Source of the DNA: a virus
Virus record (IMG/VR): IMGVR_UViG_3300017971_000407
Span: 1 to 44,818 of that record
Strand: one strand, 5' to 3'
DNA: 44,818 bases
Position numbers and translations under genes: made by a program. The notes beneath the pieces are model-generated. The model was given only the letters and a program-made list of their open reading frames with translations, was not told where the DNA came from and did no database searches. Every line of letters begins with the position of its first letter. Position 1 is the first letter of the stretch. Of this stretch, positions 8,301-21,857 are shown piece by piece.

Positions 8301-9419
8301 TCACGCCACACAGGCCACAGCATCGACTCCGTGGTGGAGTCCCTGCTTGCGGCGCTGTTTGACTGTTTGCTGCCCCCGGAACAGGCTCTTGGCCCAGATA
8401 GAATCCTGCTCGTAGGGCTCGATGAAGTCGGTGCTCTTGAAGAACAGGTTCCGCGAGATCACAAGCTCGATCCAGCGGGTGTTCAGGAAGAACGCACCGG
8501 CCTGCGTAGCAGTTTGTGCGAGGGCCACCGTATCGGCTGCGGTGTCGCCGAAGTCGGGCATGTAGTCCGACCAGAACATCATCGCACCCTTGAACTTCAT
8601 CGCCTCGAACCCGGCGCTGGTGATACCGTCGTCTCCGTAGTTGCCGTACCGCTGGTTCGCAGTGAGCCCAGCCTCGTAGCACTCGAAGTAGTTCTGGTCT
8701 GCCAGAATCAGGTCGGGGTGATCTTGGTTGGAGCCACGGGAGCATTCGTTGTAGAGATGGGCCATCTCTCGCCGGAATGCCAATGCCGTGTTCGTACCGA
8801 CGGCCGAAAGCTGGATGCGGTTGCGCCACCAGTCCTCGGCACCTTCGTCGATGTTGTGAACCGAGTCTCCGGTGGTCCACTCCTTCTTGATTAGCCAGCC
8901 GAGCGGGAGTAGATCCTTCCCGCTGTTGCCTGCCACAAAGTTGAATGGAAGACCAGCCGGGGCCGGGTCCACGATTCCCTGGACGAGCTGCTGCTCGACC
9001 ATTTGCTTCAAGGTCATCTCTGCGATGTCTACCTTGTCGCGCAAGAGTTCCCGCTTTGCAGCGAGACCCTGGTTCTGATCCATCTCTTCGCCCGAGATTC
9101 CCACCGTGCAGGCAAGCTGCGCCAAGTCCTCGATCGTGACCGTGATCGAATCCGTGGGGTTGACGCTGAGAATCTCGAACTTCGAGTAGGAACCGGCGTT
9201 CGCGTTCTCTGCCCAAATCACGGGCACCTTCACCCGAGCGCCGCCGTTCTGGAATCGAATCCCGCGCCCCGCTCCACGGTCTCGACCACGACCCCTGTTC
9301 ATCATGTACCAGAGGTACGGGATGCCCAGGAATACGTTATCCGCCAAGTCCGGCGAATGGTCATCGAGAGTCGTGGAGAACAGCGCGGAATAGATCCGCA
9401 GTTCCGAAGTCGAAGCCAT
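8301..9419 (-). CDS. Major capsid protein
   Basis: 372 residues, ATG 9419 with GAGGTGAGG just upstream. The order scaffold then this gene then decoration, the length, and the content (N-terminal LYxALFSTTLDDHSPDLADNVFLGIPYLWYM, then a GGARVKVPV ... SYSKFEILSVNPTDSITVTIEDLAQLACTVGISGEEMDQN core, long helix KRELLRDKVDIAEMTLKQMVEQQLV, and C-terminal WSDYMPDFGDTA ... TRWIELVISRNLFF) fit an HK97-fold capsid subunit. The segment GISGEEMDQNQGLAAKRELL matches the E-loop to spine-helix transition seen in related podovirus capsids. No protease domain is seen. Confidence 0.85.
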   Translation of the reverse strand: MASTSELRIYSALFSTTLDDHSPDLADNVFLGIPYLWYMMNRGRGRDRGAGRGIRFQNGGARVKVPVIWAENANAGSYSKFEILSVNPTDSITVTIEDLAQLACTVGISGEEMDQNQGLAAKRELLRDKVDIAEMTLKQMVEQQLVQGIVDPAPAGLPFNFVAGNSGKDLLPLGWLIKKEWTTGDSVHNIDEGAEDWWRNRIQLSAVGTNTALAFRREMAHLYNECSRGSNQDHPDLILADQNYFECYEAGLTANQRYGNYGDDGITSAGFEAMKFKGAMMFWSDYMPDFGDTAADTVALAQTATQAGAFFLNTRWIELVISRNLFFKSTDFIEPYEQDSIWAKSLFRGQQTVKQRRKQGLHHGVDAVACVA

Positions 9420-13087: not shown

Positions 13088-13278
13088 TTCTGCTCCCGCA
13101 CGATCCGTGGTCGAATGGGCTTCTCGCAATGAGCGCACATCAACTGCACGGGGATCAGGTCTGCGCGAACGTGTTTCTCGAACAGGCAGCGTCCGCACTT
13201 GTAGATCGCAGTCGGCTTGAATCGGCCCTGCTCTTCCGACAGCAGCTTCTCAACCTTCTTGGTCGTCTTGCTTCTCAT
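13084..13278 (-). CDS. Small zinc-ribbon protein downstream of terminase nuclease
   Basis: 64 residues. ATG 13278 overlaps the terminase nuclease stop as ATGA. A CGRC and CAHC pair separated by about twenty residues (YKCGRCLFEKHV ... LMCAHCEKPIRP) make a zinc ribbon, flanked by a basic N-terminus (RSKTTKKVEKLLSEEQGRFKP). No other domain. Translationally coupled to terminase and to the next Zn protein. Nucleic acid binding is plausible, not shown. Confidence 0.65.
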   Translation of the reverse strand: MRSKTTKKVEKLLSEEQGRFKPTAIYKCGRCLFEKHVRADLIPVQLMCAHCEKPIRPRIVREQK

Positions 13279-14180
13279 GCCAGTACGTACTTCCCTCGTT
13301 GCTGCTTCTTCTCGATCTGCTCGGCCCACCAGCCCCAGGTTCCTGGCATCGAGACGATTGCGTCAGGCGTCTCGAACCCCCGAGACAGGAGGATGTACTT
13401 GTTCGCATCGAAGGCATCGATCCCCTTCTGCACGATGGCTTCGGGGTCGTCCATGTTGGCGATGGCGTGCGCGGTCGTATGCTGCTTCTTCCGCAGATTC
13501 CGGTAGCACTTGAGCGTCTCGACGCAGTGGTCGAAGATTTGGAACTTTGGCGAGTCCTTCTTTTGCCAGAGGTATCCGTCGAGCAGAGCAACATAGGCCA
13601 TGTCTACGCCCGGCTCGTTGCGCCCCTTCTCGATGTAGATGCCCTCGTCCTCGAACATCTCGCCAATGGATTTGAGTCGCTCTTCGTCCTGTCCCTGAGT
13701 GCGCCGCCAGATCGATGGATCTCCAACAATGCCCCGTATCCGTTCCCAGTAGGGCTTGGCTTTGATGGCCTTCGCCTGCTGGGGGACCGTGAGGCCCGTC
13801 ATTACGATTTCGTCGATCTGGACGCATTCGTCGATGGACTTGAATGCGATGGGAGTGAAGGCCATTGGGTTCGCAGTGCCGTAGTCGTAGCCCGCGTAGA
13901 GCGGCCACTCCTCGGGCACGTTGAACTTGGGCACGGCGACATGCGCCTGACGTTCGAGCCAATCGGGGTACACCTTGCGACCGCCGAAGATTTGGAAATT
14001 GATTTCCATTTCCTGCTGCCACTTGGAGCCCGCTTGCCCGCCTGGATAGCCCTTGACCTGCGACTGGAACCATCGCATTCCCTTCTCGGTGTCTGGGTCT
14101 TTGACCTCATCCGCCGAGTAGTGCAACCGCATGACGCGCACGCCATCGCGGGTGGTGTAGTATTCGATGCCTTTCGACAC
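13275..14180 (-). CDS. terL: Terminase large subunit, C-terminal nuclease half (separate gene)
   Basis: 301 residues from the GTG at 14180. It begins with the linker that normally follows the ATPase (YYTTRDGVRVMRLHYSADE ... GYPGGQAGSKWQQEMEINFQIFGG) and then has the RNase H-like nuclease: YAGYDYGTANPMAF with the first acidic residue, IVGDPSIWRRT with the second, and a distal ANMDD/AFDANKY region for the third. No Walker motif is present; the ATPase half is the separate gene at 16548-17336. The start is uncertain because GGAG sits only two bases from GTG; an ATG (MRLHYSADE) lies 15 codons in. Likely works with the ATPase half as a two-piece packaging motor. Confidence 0.8.
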   Translation of the reverse strand: MSKGIEYYTTRDGVRVMRLHYSADEVKDPDTEKGMRWFQSQVKGYPGGQAGSKWQQEMEINFQIFGGRKVYPDWLERQAHVAVPKFNVPEEWPLYAGYDYGTANPMAFTPIAFKSIDECVQIDEIVMTGLTVPQQAKAIKAKPYWERIRGIVGDPSIWRRTQGQDEERLKSIGEMFEDEGIYIEKGRNEPGVDMAYVALLDGYLWQKKDSPKFQIFDHCVETLKCYRNLRKKQHTTAHAIANMDDPEAIVQKGIDAFDANKYILLSRGFETPDAIVSMPGTWGWWAEQIEKKQQRGKYVLA

Positions 14181-14185
14181 TTCTC

Positions 14186-14710
14186 CTACTTCTTCTTTGC
14201 GCCGCCGGGCTTCGCCTCGGGGGACGCTGTTTCGGGGAAGTCCACGTCCCCAGCTTCTTCGATGGCGATGAGGAACTGCTCCACCGAGGAGATGTTCTGC
14301 GCGCATCGGTTGGCGTCGAACACGGTCATCCCTCCCCCAAGACCTGCCGAATTCGACTTCAGCAGCTCGTAGGAGAGCATTTGCCACATCTGAGCCACTG
14401 CCACGGCGTCCGTGTTCAGCGGCTTGCCGTCCACGCTGATGAGTTCCGGGGGAACCTGCGTGGTCATAAACGTCATCGGATGGACGGCAGGGAGATCCGG
14501 CATCGGCCTGCCTGCAAGGCCAGCCAGCCGGTCTCGTGCGTTCTGGATGTAGGCGCGTTGACGCCCCATCGCGTGTTGGTCGAGGCCCATCGTTGTGCCT
14601 GCCGACTGTTCACGGGCGGTTGTGACACACACCTCGTAGCTGAAGTCGGCGAGGCTGCCGAGTTCGGTGTTCTTGTACTCGAAGTCACCGAACAGATCCT
14701 CGAACGCCAT
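14186..14710 (-). CDS. Unknown protein between terminase halves
   Basis: 174 residues, ATG 14710 after GGTGG. Starts MAFEDLFGDFEYKNTELGSLADFSYEV, has a helical middle (MGRQRAYIQNARDRLAGLAG) and ends with a helix (NRCAQNISSVEQFLIAIEEAG) and Lys-rich tail. The mix resembles small virion or packaging accessory proteins but no family is recognised. Its stop (TAG) is five bases from the terminase nuclease start, so the two are probably coupled. A small-terminase-like DNA-binding role is possible but no helix-turn-helix is apparent. Confidence 0.6.
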   Translation of the reverse strand: MAFEDLFGDFEYKNTELGSLADFSYEVCVTTAREQSAGTTMGLDQHAMGRQRAYIQNARDRLAGLAGRPMPDLPAVHPMTFMTTQVPPELISVDGKPLNTDAVAVAQMWQMLSYELLKSNSAGLGGGMTVFDANRCAQNISSVEQFLIAIEEAGDVDFPETASPEAKPGGAKKK

Positions 14711-14736
14711 TGGTTACCACCTCTCGTTGCAAGTTG

Positions 14737-15072
14737 CTAACGAGTGACGGATCCGCTCGTCACGTACTTCCACGGCAGCCGCCGTAGAGCTTTCTGCACC
14801 TGATGCAGAAATACGTTGATGGCCGTATTCACGAGGGCCACCTTGAAGGGCTCGAACACCGACAACAATCCGGCGACGGCGTAGCCAATCGGTTTGATGG
14901 CAGCGTCGGAGCTGCCCGGTAGGTATCCCGCGCCATCCAAGAGCGCGCCGATGTACTGCCAAACGAGGATGACGAATGGGATCGCCTGGTTGTTGATCCA
15001 CTTCACTCGCTTGGCGATGATGCCGATGAGGGCACCAATCGTGATGAGAATTGCCATTGTTTCGGGGGTCAC
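14737..15072 (-). CDS. Small membrane protein, possible holin or virion membrane protein
   Basis: 111 residues from GTG 15072, with GGAGG six bases upstream. A hydrophobic N-terminal segment (ETMAILITIGALIGIIAKRV, residues 4-23), a second (AIPFVILVWQYIGALLDGAGYL, about 29-51) and a third weaker one (PIGYAVAGLLSVFEPFKVAL). The C-terminus is basic. This layout fits a phage holin, though a structural membrane-interacting role cannot be excluded because it lies in the packaging cluster, away from the endolysin. It follows the two tandem paralogues with 10 bases between. Confidence 0.55.
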   Translation of the reverse strand: MTPETMAILITIGALIGIIAKRVKWINNQAIPFVILVWQYIGALLDGAGYLPGSSDAAIKPIGYAVAGLLSVFEPFKVALVNTAINVFLHQVQKALRRLPWKYVTSGSVTR

Positions 15073-15082
15073 GTTGATCCTC

Positions 15083-15823
15083 CTATTCCTGATACAGTCC
15101 GATGCCCCACACTTTGCCGAGGATCCGAAGCGGCGTTGTGATCGCTCCCGCCCACTGGGGATCCCACATAAGGCTGACCATTATTTCGTCGTATGCCATG
15201 ACGCTCGGCAGCCCTTCCCAGGCCCCGAACATCGTGTTCCCCGAGACGCTCGGGTAACCGAGCCAAATCATCGAAGAGATAACATCGAGCGGGTTGACGT
15301 TCGCCACCGCACCCGAGCGCCAGCCCCAACTTGCCCACTGGTCACGTCCGTTCCGGGGAGCGCCAGCCAGGTTGCCGTCTGCGTCTGCTCGTATTCCCGC
15401 GAGAGAGACCTCGGCTGGCGTTTGCCAACAAATCTGGTGTTGGGCGTAGAGGGCATTCAAATGCTGGGCGGCGGGTGCGGCGTTCCAGGGGCTATTCAGC
15501 AGCGCGTTACCTTCGTGCATGCTTCCCACTGGGACCGGAACCGCCACGGTCGTTACCGGCGGAGTTGCAGTCCAATTCACTGCAACAGTGCCCTGCACGG
15601 GGCGCGTTACCGAATAGAGCCCGAACTTCTCGTAATTCTGCACGTTGATGCGGTCGAGGTATGTGGGGTTGTAGTAGTTGGCCGCACTCGTTGTATCCAC
15701 CACGTCGTTTGGTGGATCATCCACGTCGAGCGGGATGTTGTGCAGATTCCCGCTCGTGCCGAGCGTAATGTCGTTGGTCCCATCGCTGGACCACAGCAGG
15801 AATTGCTCTTTTCGCCAGCCCAT
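15083..15823 (-). CDS. Tandem paralogue B in the terminase locus
   Basis: 246 residues; the ATG at 15823 overlaps the stop of paralogue A as TGATG. It shares with A the opening MGWRK-QFLLWSSDGTNDITLGT, then NYYNP--LDRI-V--YEKF-LYSVTRPVQGT, VPVPVGS-HEGNALLNSPW, and near the C-terminus GAWEGLPSVMAYDE-MVSLMW-PQW-G-I-TPLRILG. No cysteine motif, no membrane segment, no recognisable catalytic motif. Beta-rich, like a virion structural protein. In-frame sequence upstream of 15823 belongs to paralogue A's region and is not part of this gene. Function unknown. Confidence 0.7.
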   Translation of the reverse strand: MGWRKEQFLLWSSDGTNDITLGTSGNLHNIPLDVDDPPNDVVDTTSAANYYNPTYLDRINVQNYEKFGLYSVTRPVQGTVAVNWTATPPVTTVAVPVPVGSMHEGNALLNSPWNAAPAAQHLNALYAQHQICWQTPAEVSLAGIRADADGNLAGAPRNGRDQWASWGWRSGAVANVNPLDVISSMIWLGYPSVSGNTMFGAWEGLPSVMAYDEIMVSLMWDPQWAGAITTPLRILGKVWGIGLYQE

Positions 15824-16548
15824 CACTGACCTCGCTCTTGGTAGTACCCGATGCCGTAGACCCTGCCGAGAATGCGAAGCGGCGTTGAGATGACTCCTCC
15901 CCACTGCGGCACCCACATGAGGCTCACCATGAGTTCGTCGTATGCCATGACGCTCGGCAGCCCTTCCCATGCTCCAGTCCACGGGCTTCCGGCTGCCGCC
16001 ATAGACGGATAGCCGAGGAAGATCATCGAAGAGGCAATATCGAGCGGATTGACGGACAGTCCCGCCTGACGCCAACCCCAGTACGTCCATTGCCCAGTAA
16101 CGCTTCCGTCTGCATTGCCCCGCGTGCCAGTCAGTGATGCTGTGGGGGCGTGGAATGTGATGCGGTGCTCGTTGTAAACGGCTGATGCGTGCTGGGCTGC
16201 GGGCGCGATGTCCCAGGGGCTATTCAGCAGCGCGTTGCCCTCGTGGGCGCTGCCGACCGGCACCGGGACCGAAACGACTGTCGCGGCCGGGTTGGCGGAG
16301 AACCCAACAGAGTCAGTGCCCTGCACGGGGCGCGTTACCGAGTAGAGCGCGAATTTCTCGTAGTGCGTCACGTCGATCCGGTCGAGTGACGCGGGGTTGT
16401 AGTAGTTCAGGCTCCCGATGTCCGCCACGTCGTTTGGGGGATTGTCTTTGTCGAGCGGGACGTTGTGGCACTGGTTCGTAGTGCCGAGTGTGATGTCGTT
16501 GGTGCCGTCACTCGACCAGAGCAAGAACTGGTCTTTTCTCCAGCCCAT
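15823..16548 (-). CDS. Tandem paralogue A in the terminase locus
   Basis: 241 residues; the ATG at 16548 overlaps the terminase ATPase stop as TGATG, so it is translated in tight coupling with it. Clearly homologous to paralogue B along its whole length, with the most different part in the middle (residues 125-165). The same phrases are conserved in both, including YSVTRPVQGT, VPVPVGS-HEGNALLNSPW and EGLPSVMAYDE. A recent tandem duplication is the simplest explanation. I do not recognise the family; a capsid or tail surface protein is the most likely role. Confidence 0.7.
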   Translation of the reverse strand: MGWRKDQFLLWSSDGTNDITLGTTNQCHNVPLDKDNPPNDVADIGSLNYYNPASLDRIDVTHYEKFALYSVTRPVQGTDSVGFSANPAATVVSVPVPVGSAHEGNALLNSPWDIAPAAQHASAVYNEHRITFHAPTASLTGTRGNADGSVTGQWTYWGWRQAGLSVNPLDIASSMIFLGYPSMAAAGSPWTGAWEGLPSVMAYDELMVSLMWVPQWGGVISTPLRILGRVYGIGYYQERGQ

Positions 16549-17336
16549 CAGGCCGCCTCCTTATCGTCCTCTTCCACGAGGGTTGCGTAGTAGCTACCGG
16601 CTGCGGCGGTCGTGATGAGAATGATGCGGCCACCGGAGTCGGGGTCATCCGGGTAGCCCTTCGCCATCGGAAGAGCTGCTTTGTATGCGTCCTCGAACTC
16701 GGGTTGGAAGGCAGCCTCGTCGCAGATCACCAGCGAGGCGGTGTAGGAACGGAACATATCGGCACCCTGCGGGATCCCAGCGATCACCGATCCGTTGGGA
16801 TACCACAGCTCACCTCGGGTCGGGGTCAGCTCGGTAGCGCGCATGAACAGCGGCATCGCCCTCTCGATGAACGCGCAACGGGCATGCAGCCACGAGTTGC
16901 GGTACACGAGGTTCCATGCGTCTTCTGCCTTCTTGGATTGGATCATCACCCGCGATTGCGGGTGGAAGCGGGCTTCCCAGGTTGCATACGCGCAGCAGAG
17001 CCAGGTCAACATCAACTGCCGCGACTTGGAAATCGCGGCTACGTCTCCTGATTCTTTGCCGTGGATGTGTTGGAGTGCTGCTCGGAGGTACTTCTTGTCG
17101 GTAGGGAAGGGTTTTCGGGGGAACTTGCGGGATCGCTCATCGAATGTCCGAACGAAACCGCCGAAGATGTAGTATTCGGGATCCTTCGTGCACTTCTCGA
17201 TGACCTTCTGGACCTTCGAGGTCGCACAACGGCGATTCATCCCGAGTTGCCGGAGCAGCTCGCGATCGAACGCTTCGAGATCCTTGAGCTGGGCTTGCGA
17301 CCGCAGGACGCGCTCGCTCGTCAACCGCTCGGGCAT
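16548..17336 (-). CDS. terL: Terminase large subunit, N-terminal ATPase half (separate gene)
   Basis: 262 residues from ATG 17336. It has the terminase ATPase signature: an SKSRQLMLTW Walker A-like motif at about residue 102 (the KSRQ form usual in large terminases), Walker B with catalytic glutamate SLVICDEAAF at about 207-216, and the coupling motif IILITTAAAG near the C-terminus. The gene then stops, with no nuclease domain. The nuclease half is 2.4 kb further down the operon at 13275-14180. No frameshift is seen: the end overlaps the next gene by TGATG, so the split looks evolved rather than a sequencing fault. A start at 17354 (GTG) is possible. Confidence 0.8.
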   Translation of the reverse strand: MPERLTSERVLRSQAQLKDLEAFDRELLRQLGMNRRCATSKVQKVIEKCTKDPEYYIFGGFVRTFDERSRKFPRKPFPTDKKYLRAALQHIHGKESGDVAAISKSRQLMLTWLCCAYATWEARFHPQSRVMIQSKKAEDAWNLVYRNSWLHARCAFIERAMPLFMRATELTPTRGELWYPNGSVIAGIPQGADMFRSYTASLVICDEAAFQPEFEDAYKAALPMAKGYPDDPDSGGRIILITTAAAGSYYATLVEEDDKEAA

Positions 17337-17410
17337 TCCACACCACCCCACCACACTTCACAACCCATGAAGAGCGTGGGCGATATGGCGCAGAAATGTC
17401 AAGTTGCCCG

Positions 17411-17514: not shown

Positions 17515-18015
17515 TTACTTCAACCCCCAACGTGCTCGATAACCACGGTTGTCGTAGTGGATGTGGCTGCGGTAGTACCCGAGACCGCCCTCACCCATGC
17601 GCGTGGGTCTGCCGATGCCGTAGCGCATCGTGGGCTCGCTCATCAGCTCGTCGGCAACCTTGTAAACCCGCTTCATGGATACACCTGGCACCTTGAAGTC
17701 CACCGCCATGATGCGCTTCGAGATCCATTTGGTGAGATGTCTGGAGTTTCGTGCTGAATCGGGGATGTAGCGGACGAGCCAGGTGGGCCGGAGACAGTCG
17801 GTGATGATGATAGGCTTGCGGAGCTTCTCGCGGAGCACCTCCAGACTATTCGCCAGTGCCGTCGCCGCGTCTACATCCTGACACACAACCGGGAACCGAT
17901 CGTGCTTACAGACCCGCTTGGGCCAATACACCCGAAAGTCGCTCAACCAGAAGTGATCCGAGACTTTCACGTCTGGGACATCCTGGCCGTCGATCCTCAC
18001 TACCCGTGTCTCCAT
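17515..18015 (-). CDS. Endolysin, peptidase M15 (D,D-carboxypeptidase-like, M15A_3 type)
   Basis: 166 residues from ATG 18015, with GGGAGGGG upstream. It carries the M15 zinc-ligand pattern: SRH at 91-93, AVDF at 104-107 and GGLGYYRSHIHYDNRGYRARW at 143-163, giving likely ligands His93, Asp106 and His153. The substrate would be peptide cross-bridges of peptidoglycan, releasing progeny. The His93 to Asp106 spacing (13) is longer than the usual S-x-H-x-x-G-x-A-x-D, so there is a short insertion. No signal peptide, so a holin is needed for export: candidates are 14737-15072 and 33229-33453. Confidence 0.8.
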   Translation of the reverse strand: METRVVRIDGQDVPDVKVSDHFWLSDFRVYWPKRVCKHDRFPVVCQDVDAATALANSLEVLREKLRKPIIITDCLRPTWLVRYIPDSARNSRHLTKWISKRIMAVDFKVPGVSMKRVYKVADELMSEPTMRYGIGRPTRMGEGGLGYYRSHIHYDNRGYRARWGLK

Positions 18016-18133
18016 CGCCACAACCCCTCCCGAGTGTGTCATTCTGTGCACGCCGAGGGGGATGCGCCCTCGTACCGCAGGCTCTCACGGCGGATCTGTG
18101 CGTGGAGCCGTTGGCCGGTCGGGCGCACCCGCC

Positions 18134-20015: not shown

Positions 20016-20191
20016 TGATCCGCTGCACGCCCGAGTATTTCGTCGGCGTGATCCTGGGCTTGGTGCTGGGGTTCATCATCGGCTCGTTCCTGGCGTGGGG
20101 CTACTACATGCGGGCGCGCAATCTGATGCGGATAGCCCAGCGAATGAGGGAGGAGATCGATGAGCGAGGAGACGAGGAATCTGGCTGCTGA
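20015..20191 (+). CDS. Single-pass mini-membrane protein
   Basis: 58 residues, ATG 20015 overlapping the upstream stop as TGATG. A single hydrophobic segment (FVGVILGLVLGFIIGSFLAWGYY, about residues 9-31) follows a short polar start, then a basic/acidic helix (MRARNLMRIAQRMREEIDERGDEESGC). The topology resembles small phage inner-membrane proteins. Its end overlaps the next gene by about 32 bases. A spanin-like or superinfection role is conjecture. Confidence 0.6.
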   Translation: MIRCTPEYFVGVILGLVLGFIIGSFLAWGYYMRARNLMRIAQRMREEIDERGDEESGC

Positions 20192-20474: not shown

Positions 20475-20835
20475 TGGATTGGACCGCGCAGTACAGCGGG
20501 TCATACGCGGCGACATCTTTTTCACCGAAGAGGGCTTTACGGTTGGGCGGTTCAAGCCGTGTCCCGTGTGCGGCATGCTTATGTTCTCCTCCGGAGCCGA
20601 GCACATTTGCAACGAGCCGCCCAACTACACCGGGATTGGCGTCATCAAGGACAGCGAGAAGAAGAGCAACTTCTCGCTACTGGAGCAGACGCTACGTGCG
20701 TGGATGCGGGTCATGGACAAGGCGTACAAGCGCGACATCGAGCGCAAGATATTCGGCAACCAGTGTCCGCAGTGCGGCAAGGCGACCAGTGAGCTGTGTC
20801 CTGGGTGCGGGCGCTGCGCGGGGTGCTGCGGATGA
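20467..20835 (+). CDS. Double zinc-ribbon protein
   Basis: 122 residues, ATG 20467 overlapping the previous end. First site PCPVCGMLMFSSGAEHIC at 31-48; second at the C-terminus CPQCG ... CPGCGRCAGCCG with a cluster of Cys. Between them a helix EQTLRAWMRVMDKAYKRDIERKIFGN. The eight or more Cys residues indicate one or two zinc ribbons. May act as a DNA- or protein-binding adaptor; function unknown. ATGA overlap joins it to the next gene. Confidence 0.65.
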   Translation: MADGLDRAVQRVIRGDIFFTEEGFTVGRFKPCPVCGMLMFSSGAEHICNEPPNYTGIGVIKDSEKKSNFSLLEQTLRAWMRVMDKAYKRDIERKIFGNQCPQCGKATSELCPGCGRCAGCCG

Positions 20836-21020
20836 TGAGCGTCCGGCCTGATGCGCTGTGGCATGAAATCTACGAGGGTCGCCTTTACGTCCCTTGGTGG
20901 AAAACGATTCTGCCAAGGCTGTTCGGATTCAAGGTGGTGCATTTCTCTGGCGATTACATGGTGACGGTATACTCGTGGCGCGGGAAGCTGTACTGCATGA
21001 AGGTGGAGAAGGTGCTATGA
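20832..21020 (+). CDS. Hypothetical protein, 62 residues
   Basis: ATG 20832 (or 20835) overlaps the upstream stop. Strand- and aromatic-rich (RLYVPWWKTILPRLFGFKVVHFSGDYMVTVYSWRGKLYCMKVEKVL). The segment WWKTILPRLFGFKVV may be membrane-active, but it is short. The following Tat-signal gene starts inside its stop (ATGA), so the two could form a unit. Family not recognised. Confidence 0.55.
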   Translation: MMSVRPDALWHEIYEGRLYVPWWKTILPRLFGFKVVHFSGDYMVTVYSWRGKLYCMKVEKVL

Positions 21021-21334
21021 AGAGACGTGACTTCCTAAAGCTCCTCGGAATCAGTGGTGGCGCAGCAGTCGCGGCGACCATCCCAGCATCAAAGGCCGAA
21101 GGTGACGCACCGCCGGACCCGAGAATGCGGTTCATGCTGACTGGCGGGGTGGCGTGCGTGAACTTCAACGACTGCATCATTGGGCGACCGCTGGACGAGA
21201 CTACGTGGTACGAGACGCGGGCGCAGGCGGAGATGGGTTGGCTGGCGACGGTTCGATCGGAGAGCTGGACCACGAAGCCGAAGCTGTACGAGTGGCGCAA
21301 TGCGCGCTGGGAAGACTTGGAGATGGGAAAATGA
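21017..21334 (+). CDS. Phage-encoded protein with twin-arginine (Tat) signal peptide
   Basis: 105 residues, ATG 21017 overlapping the upstream stop as ATGA. The N-terminus MKRRDFLKLLGISGGAAVAATIP contains RRDFLK, an exact R-R-x-F-L-K motif, then a hydrophobic stretch and SKA before EGD, a plausible cleavage site after Ala27. The rest is about 78 residues with aromatic and Cys positions (VACVNFNDC, TTWYETRAQAEMGWLATVRSESW, YEWRNARWEDLEMGK). A Tat signal means the protein should fold in the cytoplasm and be exported. Function of the mature part unknown; it could act in the envelope during infection. Confidence 0.75.
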   Translation: MKRRDFLKLLGISGGAAVAATIPASKAEGDAPPDPRMRFMLTGGVACVNFNDCIIGRPLDETTWYETRAQAEMGWLATVRSESWTTKPKLYEWRNARWEDLEMGK

Positions 21335-21408
21335 CCGACAAGAACTACACCGACATCACGCTCGTGAACACCTATCTCGAAGAGGAGCGCGAGGAAGCGG
21401 CCAAATGA
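21331..21408 (+). CDS. 25-residue acidic peptide
   Basis: ATG 21331 overlaps the upstream stop (ATGA) and its stop overlaps the next ATG. Sequence MTDKNYTDITLVNTYLEEEREEAAK. Perfect chain of ATGA overlaps on both sides supports that it is translated. No function can be inferred. Confidence 0.45.
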   Translation: MTDKNYTDITLVNTYLEEEREEAAK

Positions 21409-21857
21409 GACGCATCCTCTTCACCGGCAGCCGCAAGCAACGGATGCCTGACCGTGAGAAGGCGATCGTCTATGGGGTGCTGACGACGCTCGGGACCGAC
21501 TGGATCGCCATTACCGGCGGAGCCACGGGAGTCGATGACTGTGTGTACTCGTGGTGCCACGGGCACGGCATCCACGTGGCGGTGGTGAAGGCGTTGTGGT
21601 GGAAGCACGGCCGGGCTGCGGGTCCACGTCGCAACGCCGTCATGTTGGACCTTCGCCCAGACGAGGTGATTGCGTTCCCGAGGAAGGACTCGAAGGGGAC
21701 GCTCGACATGATCCGCAAGGCCAAGGCGAAGGGTGTGCCCGTGCGGGTCTATCCACTGGACCAGACAACGATTCCTGACGCCGAGGGGCCGAACGCCTGC
21801 TCGGGAACCGAACACCACGACCCCAACTGCGGGGGCACATGCGGGGTGCTGGAATGA
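21405..21857 (+). CDS. DUF2493 / YspA-like SLOG-family protein
   Basis: 150 residues, ATG 21405 overlapping the upstream stop. The SLOG Rossmann pattern is clear: RRILFTGSRKQRMP at the N-terminus, WIAITGGATGVDD (GGATGVD) at about 33-45, then HVAVVKALWWKHGRAAGPRRNAVMLDLRPDEVIAFP with the AGPxRN-xxM signature. Such proteins bind nucleotide-like ligands and are widespread in phages and defence systems; no activity is known for this group. The C-terminal extension (CSGTEHHDPNCGGTCGVLE) is Cys/His-rich and may bind zinc. Confidence 0.8.
   Translation: MRRILFTGSRKQRMPDREKAIVYGVLTTLGTDWIAITGGATGVDDCVYSWCHGHGIHVAVVKALWWKHGRAAGPRRNAVMLDLRPDEVIAFPRKDSKGTLDMIRKAKAKGVPVRVYPLDQTTIPDAEGPNACSGTEHHDPNCGGTCGVLE

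Follow-up and report, generated by a model that had tools for sequence, protein, structure and literature searches.

Small envelope exclusion proteins are known from several phages, such as T5 Llp and phage Cor, and these are Sec lipoproteins or membrane proteins. The pairing of a constant N-terminal module with a fast-changing body is known from conotoxins and polymorphic toxins. Here we describe a small gene of an uncultivated virus, whose predicted product begins with a twin-arginine translocation (Tat) signal. The analysed stretch, hereafter the window, is the whole record of this virus, 44,818 bases in length. We estimate the probability at about 0.6 that the gene product is an accessory protein which is targeted to Tat and acts at the envelope of the host.

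The gene lies on the plus strand at 21017..21334 and encodes 105 aa, with MKRRDFLKLLGISGGAAVAATIPASKAEGDAPP as the N-terminal reading of the translation. The protein begins with MKRRDFLKLLGISGGAAVAATIPASKA, a predicted Tat signal peptide of 27 aa (21017..21097, plus strand), and continues with EGDAPP. MKRRDFLK occupies residues 1–8, and the arginine pair at residues 3–4 is encoded by positions 21023–21028 of the plus strand. A hydrophobic stretch without charged residues follows, and then S-K-A, immediately before the point, placed by eye, at which the signal is likely cleaved. The mature part of 78 aa (21098..21331, plus strand) has two cysteines and no recognised family. The curated model TIGR01409 (TAT_signal_seq) scored 21.6 bits on the protein, above its cut-off of 16.7, and in a six-frame search of the window its sole match was at this ORF, with 23.7 bits. 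Pfam PF10518 (TAT_signal) gave 11.6 bits on the same protein, under its cut-off of 22.7. The initial annotation had read an N-terminal RRDFLK, a hydrophobic stretch and an SKA site in 21017–21334, all of which are present in the translation, and its proposal that a small phage protein is targeted to Tat is supported by the MKRRDFLK start and the TIGR01409 score; the export of a folded protein and the effect on host surface or superinfection that it also proposed are putative. As far as the sequence can tell, Tat targeting of the protein is well supported.

The ORF overlaps each neighbour through ATGA. Its ATG overlaps the stop of an upstream ORF of 62 aa without a signal (20832..21020, plus strand), and its own stop overlaps the ATG at 21331 of a downstream ORF of 25 aa (21331..21408, plus strand). 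A Shine-Dalgarno-like GGAG was read at 21005..21008 on the plus strand and ends 8 nt ahead of the ATG of the Tat ORF. The frame stays open upstream as far as a TTG at 20894, and the start at 21017 is favoured over this TTG because of the ATGA overlaps and the Shine-Dalgarno-like sequence. The signal would be accidental if the start had been miscalled within this open frame, or if a hydrophobic N-terminus merely happened to read RRDFLK. When the window was shuffled 200 times by dinucleotides, 6 shuffles contained an ORF that was 60 aa or longer, matched a loose Tat regex and had a hydrophobic stretch, and a single loose match is therefore an event of about 3% by chance. However, the full RRDFLK motif, the curated-model score and the gene packing together make chance unlikely for this ORF. 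In addition, a related phage has an independent small Tat ORF. This phage (G017, locus L076) is the nearest other relative found via the large terminase subunit, TerL, which is 57% identical, and its one small Tat ORF encodes 85 aa starting with MDRRAFVKLLGLACGAMS, scores above the TIGR01409 cut-off and differs from the window ORF in its mature part. An accidental signal is, in our judgement, very improbable.

The Tat ORF is part of a run of small genes that overlap on the plus strand. The gene after the 25-aa ORF (21405..21857, plus strand, 150 aa) matched phrog_289 ('GTP-binding domain') with an E value of 1.2e-24, and another small ORF of the run (20016..20189, plus strand) has one hydrophobic, probable transmembrane segment by sequence reading. 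The minus strand carries the capsid protein (8301–9419, phrog_9953), which has about 26% identity to its counterparts in Mx8, Stenotrophomonas phage BUCT555 and others, and the terminase pieces (16548–17354 and 13275–14387). The large terminase subunit is split over two separate ORFs in the window (13275–17354, minus strand) and also in L076 (9890–11978); two tandem duplicated genes with about 77% DNA identity (15083–16090 and 15823–16548) lie between these ORFs in the window, and another small ORF lies between them in L076. The region 17515–18051 on the minus strand resembles an M15-type cell-wall peptidase by eye. A haloarchaeal host was considered as the reason for Tat use and rejected, as the window proteins are not uniformly acidic. 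The sole full-length copy of the Tat ORF that was found is in the near-identical contig 3300017963_000555, which is identical to the window across 12,615 bases (L002) and 99.98% identical across 17,081 bases (L075). Judged from these alignments, the contig and the window are the same virus.

The mature part was assigned to no family in Pfam, NCBIfam or PHROG scans, and no endolysin, spanin or holin domain was detected in it with the same three collections. A lipobox cysteine is absent from the signal end, and the first cysteine does not occur before residue 47. Searches of isolate phages by tblastn gave no relative, either with the whole protein, for which only weak matches with E values of 2 or worse were obtained, or with the signal alone. 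A PDB search gave one match, which was at chance level. AlphaFold on the single sequence, without an alignment, returned a mean pLDDT of 44, and therefore there is no sign that the mature part folds quickly. The gene could instead be a host-derived moron, i.e., a captured fragment of a cellular Tat protein with a host-related periplasmic role, and some members of the class described below do resemble cellular enzymes (GDSL, deacetylase). However, 590 stretches of genome_contigs matched a pattern and none was confirmed as a relative of the window protein, and the lack of any family in the three scans also argues against capture. We consider this origin unlikely.

The back-translated MKRRDFLK start was found in 71 stretches of viral_contigs, of which 59 were exact and 52 distinct; the other 12 were dropped as inexact, the degenerate pattern also admitting S or F. 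A scrambled, composition-matched control, MKDRFRLK, gave 2 stretches in the same collection. A hydrophobic stretch was present in 41 of the 52 distinct exact viral proteins, as compared with 263 of 1200 background ORFs, and some exact ORFs were only 13–37 aa long or had no such stretch. Closed viral MKRRDFLK proteins were small, with 38 of 40 at or below 200 aa and a median of 92.5 aa, while 6 of 83 closed cellular proteins were in this range, with a median of 363 aa, among the matches listed from a sample of at least 120 stretches in scan order. The variant start MKRREFLK gave 14 distinct viral proteins, 12 with a hydrophobic stretch and 8 of 10 closed ones at or below 200 aa, and MNRRDFLK gave 50, with 44 and 32 of 42, respectively. 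Apart from duplicate contigs, the mature parts in the viral MKRRDFLK set are mostly unrelated.

A loose RR regex detected 163 ORFs in 170 loci, a count that includes the ORFs by which the loci were chosen, some of the loci being overlapping or duplicate; the KK control gave 2 and the reversed-motif control 1. Strict RR matches numbered 5 in 53 loci chosen by their terminases (462,548 bases). Two of them were terminase N-termini and three were on the minus strand and likely due to chance, and a small sense-strand Tat ORF like that of the window was not among the five in these loci, which were chosen without regard to Tat. This result indicates that small Tat genes are uncommon in any one phage but occur in clusters. 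The initial annotation had called Tat signals rare on small phage proteins, which holds per phage and misses the recurrence across unrelated uncultivated phages, where 26 of the 170 loci have at least two Tat ORFs. The neighbours of the Tat loci (65 of 88 downstream and 61 of 92 upstream, short or opposite-strand neighbours being left out) include portals, terminases, and HNH and NinG families. None of these was common to more than three, and therefore no fixed partner gene was found. Class members with Tat signals include L242 (beta-helix), L265 (GDSL) and L270 (polysaccharide deacetylase), which look like proteins destined for the outside of the cytoplasm. At the level of abstracts the literature gave no description of a phage Tat-tag family (the search extended to a minority of subscription papers and to no preprints). 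The window ORF belongs to a scattered class of phage proteins that seems to be undescribed so far.

The signals behave as units that are separable from the mature parts. Between L035 and L072, 63 nt from the ATG to the signal end are 90.5% identical, and the flanks share nothing. In the contigs G001–G003, a start unit of about 60 nt is 85–100% identical between genes and the following 60 nt match at chance level, as in one pair with 60/60 identical positions in the unit and then 22/60. On this pattern, the Tat signals have evidently been copied as units of about 60 nt between unrelated genes of these contigs. G002d and G003a have in common about 19 nt upstream and the entire signal, whereas their mature parts are not shared, a pattern indicative of recombination at the signal. 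G001 (84.5 kb) has 13 TIGR01409 matches, all 13 above the cut-off, and G002 has six, of which four are above it. G009, the contig of L017, has three consecutive, almost abutting Tat ORFs upstream of TerL.

The copied signal unit of G001–G004 (L263, L266, L269, L273, L279, L290 and L297) includes, within the coding sequence, a perfect hairpin of 13 bp whose loop has four bases. The exact hairpin occurs in 7 viral stretches as 10 copies, every one of them inside such signals, and it is not evident in the window Tat signal. In L052, the first 19 nt of the Tat gene reappear just past its stop, 248 nt after the gene start, as if they were a remnant of duplication or recombination. Several other proteins of G001–G003 (L358–L367) begin with an M-x-F-R-x-W-L-like motif, which we take to be reminiscent of T4 capsid-targeting leaders.

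The arginine pair was kept in all 11 pairs with homologous mature parts, with nucleotide matches in the signal down to 33/72; these pairs are other members of the class, listed because their genes carry signals. A homologue with its N-terminus present but without a signal was not found by tblastn over the contigs. L358 and L363 keep RR in spite of a codon change (AGA AGA versus CGT CGT), and the TerL pair L376/L378 keeps it in a diverged leader. In the paralogues L238 and L246, 11 signal codons are identical, 13 differ synonymously and 2 change the amino acid, as compared with 8, 13 and 40, respectively, after the signal. These paralogues and the L358/L363 pair point to selection on the tag. 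The idea that the signal is a mere DNA element was rejected, because most changes in the L238/L246 signal are synonymous. A Tat decoy is another reading: the peptide would occupy TatBC and slow host Tat export during infection, and the mature part would matter little. The strong consensus of the tags, the variable and sometimes tiny mature parts and the tandem copies of G009 are consistent with such a role. However, the mature parts are retained in homologues, with identities of 68.7% for G002a/G003a and 53.4% for G001c/G002c, and therefore are not free to drift. We give the decoy very little credence.

Tat-like leaders were also found on packaging proteins. Among the terminases, L200 (phrog_5653, 6.6e-28) and L241 (phrog_2, 1.5e-22) have such a leader, and in the contigs G019, G020 and G021 (L376, L378 and L418) both TerL_ATPase and TIGR01409 scored above their cut-offs. 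In the best 10 of 2164 isolate TerL records, the alignment with L376 begins at residue 46 or later. L290 is a capsid-like protein of the gp23 family (PF07068, 3.6e-14) with TAT_signal above the cut-off, and in the contig group of L290, L297 and L263 this protein stands among many Tat ORFs. The Tat-like N-termini of the terminases and of L290 do not fit easily with simple export. A strict A-x-A after the hydrophobic stretch was present in 25 of 92 viral signals as compared with 46 of 94 cellular signals among the matches listed, and in 2 of 80 viral downstream control segments. The lower frequency of A-x-A in viral signals suggests that cleavage may not be as universal in phages as in cells, and the tagged packaging proteins suggest that in some cases the role of the tag may be localisation instead of export.

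The window tag, too, might target or anchor its protein to the inner membrane, on the cytoplasmic side, or to TatBC, with no release to the outside, as an address for assembly, packaging or regulation. The five terminases, L290, the RR retention in L376/L378 and the fewer A-x-A sites than in cells are all in line with this reading, which we regard as possible but doubtful: the class consists mostly of small orphans for which a packaging role is not known, a plausible SKA site ends the window signal, and L242, L265 and L270 resemble proteins meant for the outside of the cytoplasm. We also raise, tentatively, the idea that the Tat tag in some phages is a general, exchangeable address label, encoded by a short DNA unit that serves as a joint for recombination and has been copied to genes unrelated to each other, those of terminases and of the capsid family among them. 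Such a label could serve either to gather proteins at the inner membrane, in aid of packaging or assembly, or to shuffle envelope effectors. The window gene would represent it in a single copy.

We favour export to the envelope for the window protein. A genuine Tat signal would bring the product to the host TatABC, and its cleavage would leave a small domain of about 78 aa. We infer that this domain folds and most likely has its site of action at the inner membrane or outside it, i.e., in the periplasm or envelope, where it would, for example, shield the infected cell or counter an envelope defence. The gene is one member of a recurrent modular class, in which a standard Tat tag is joined to fast-changing and mostly unrelated mature domains. 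The sequences show the gene, its curated-model signal, its small size, the recurrence of the class, the recombination between tags and mature parts and the retention of RR; export, cleavage, folding and the envelope role go beyond what they show. If this is true, phages of uncultivated hosts use Tat more systematically than has been assumed, by joining a modular tag to small proteins that change quickly, and the tag is a searchable handle for finding phage envelope effectors. The Tat-tagged terminases raise the question of whether Tat serves, in some phages, to bring DNA packaging to the membrane.

Among the known systems, TIGR02811 (formate dehydrogenase region TAT target) is comparable in that the window protein is also very small and Tat-tagged; this model (formate_TAT) scored 15.0 bits on the window protein, under its cut-off of 48.45, and no formate dehydrogenase region was seen in the window. 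The bacterial Tat substrates described by TIGR01409 share with the window protein an SRRxFLK-type motif, a hydrophobic stretch and a signal-peptidase-like end, but the window protein is encoded by a phage, its mature part is just 78 aa and it has no cofactor or enzyme family. Like T5 Llp and Cor, it is a small phage protein of an accessory region and is predicted to be exported; unlike them, it carries a Tat signal, and the signal end lacks a cysteine. By analogy only, the phage Tat class resembles the conotoxins and polymorphic toxins in pairing a constant leader with a variable body, although the constant module here is a Tat tag, and it is found across unrelated genes and phages.
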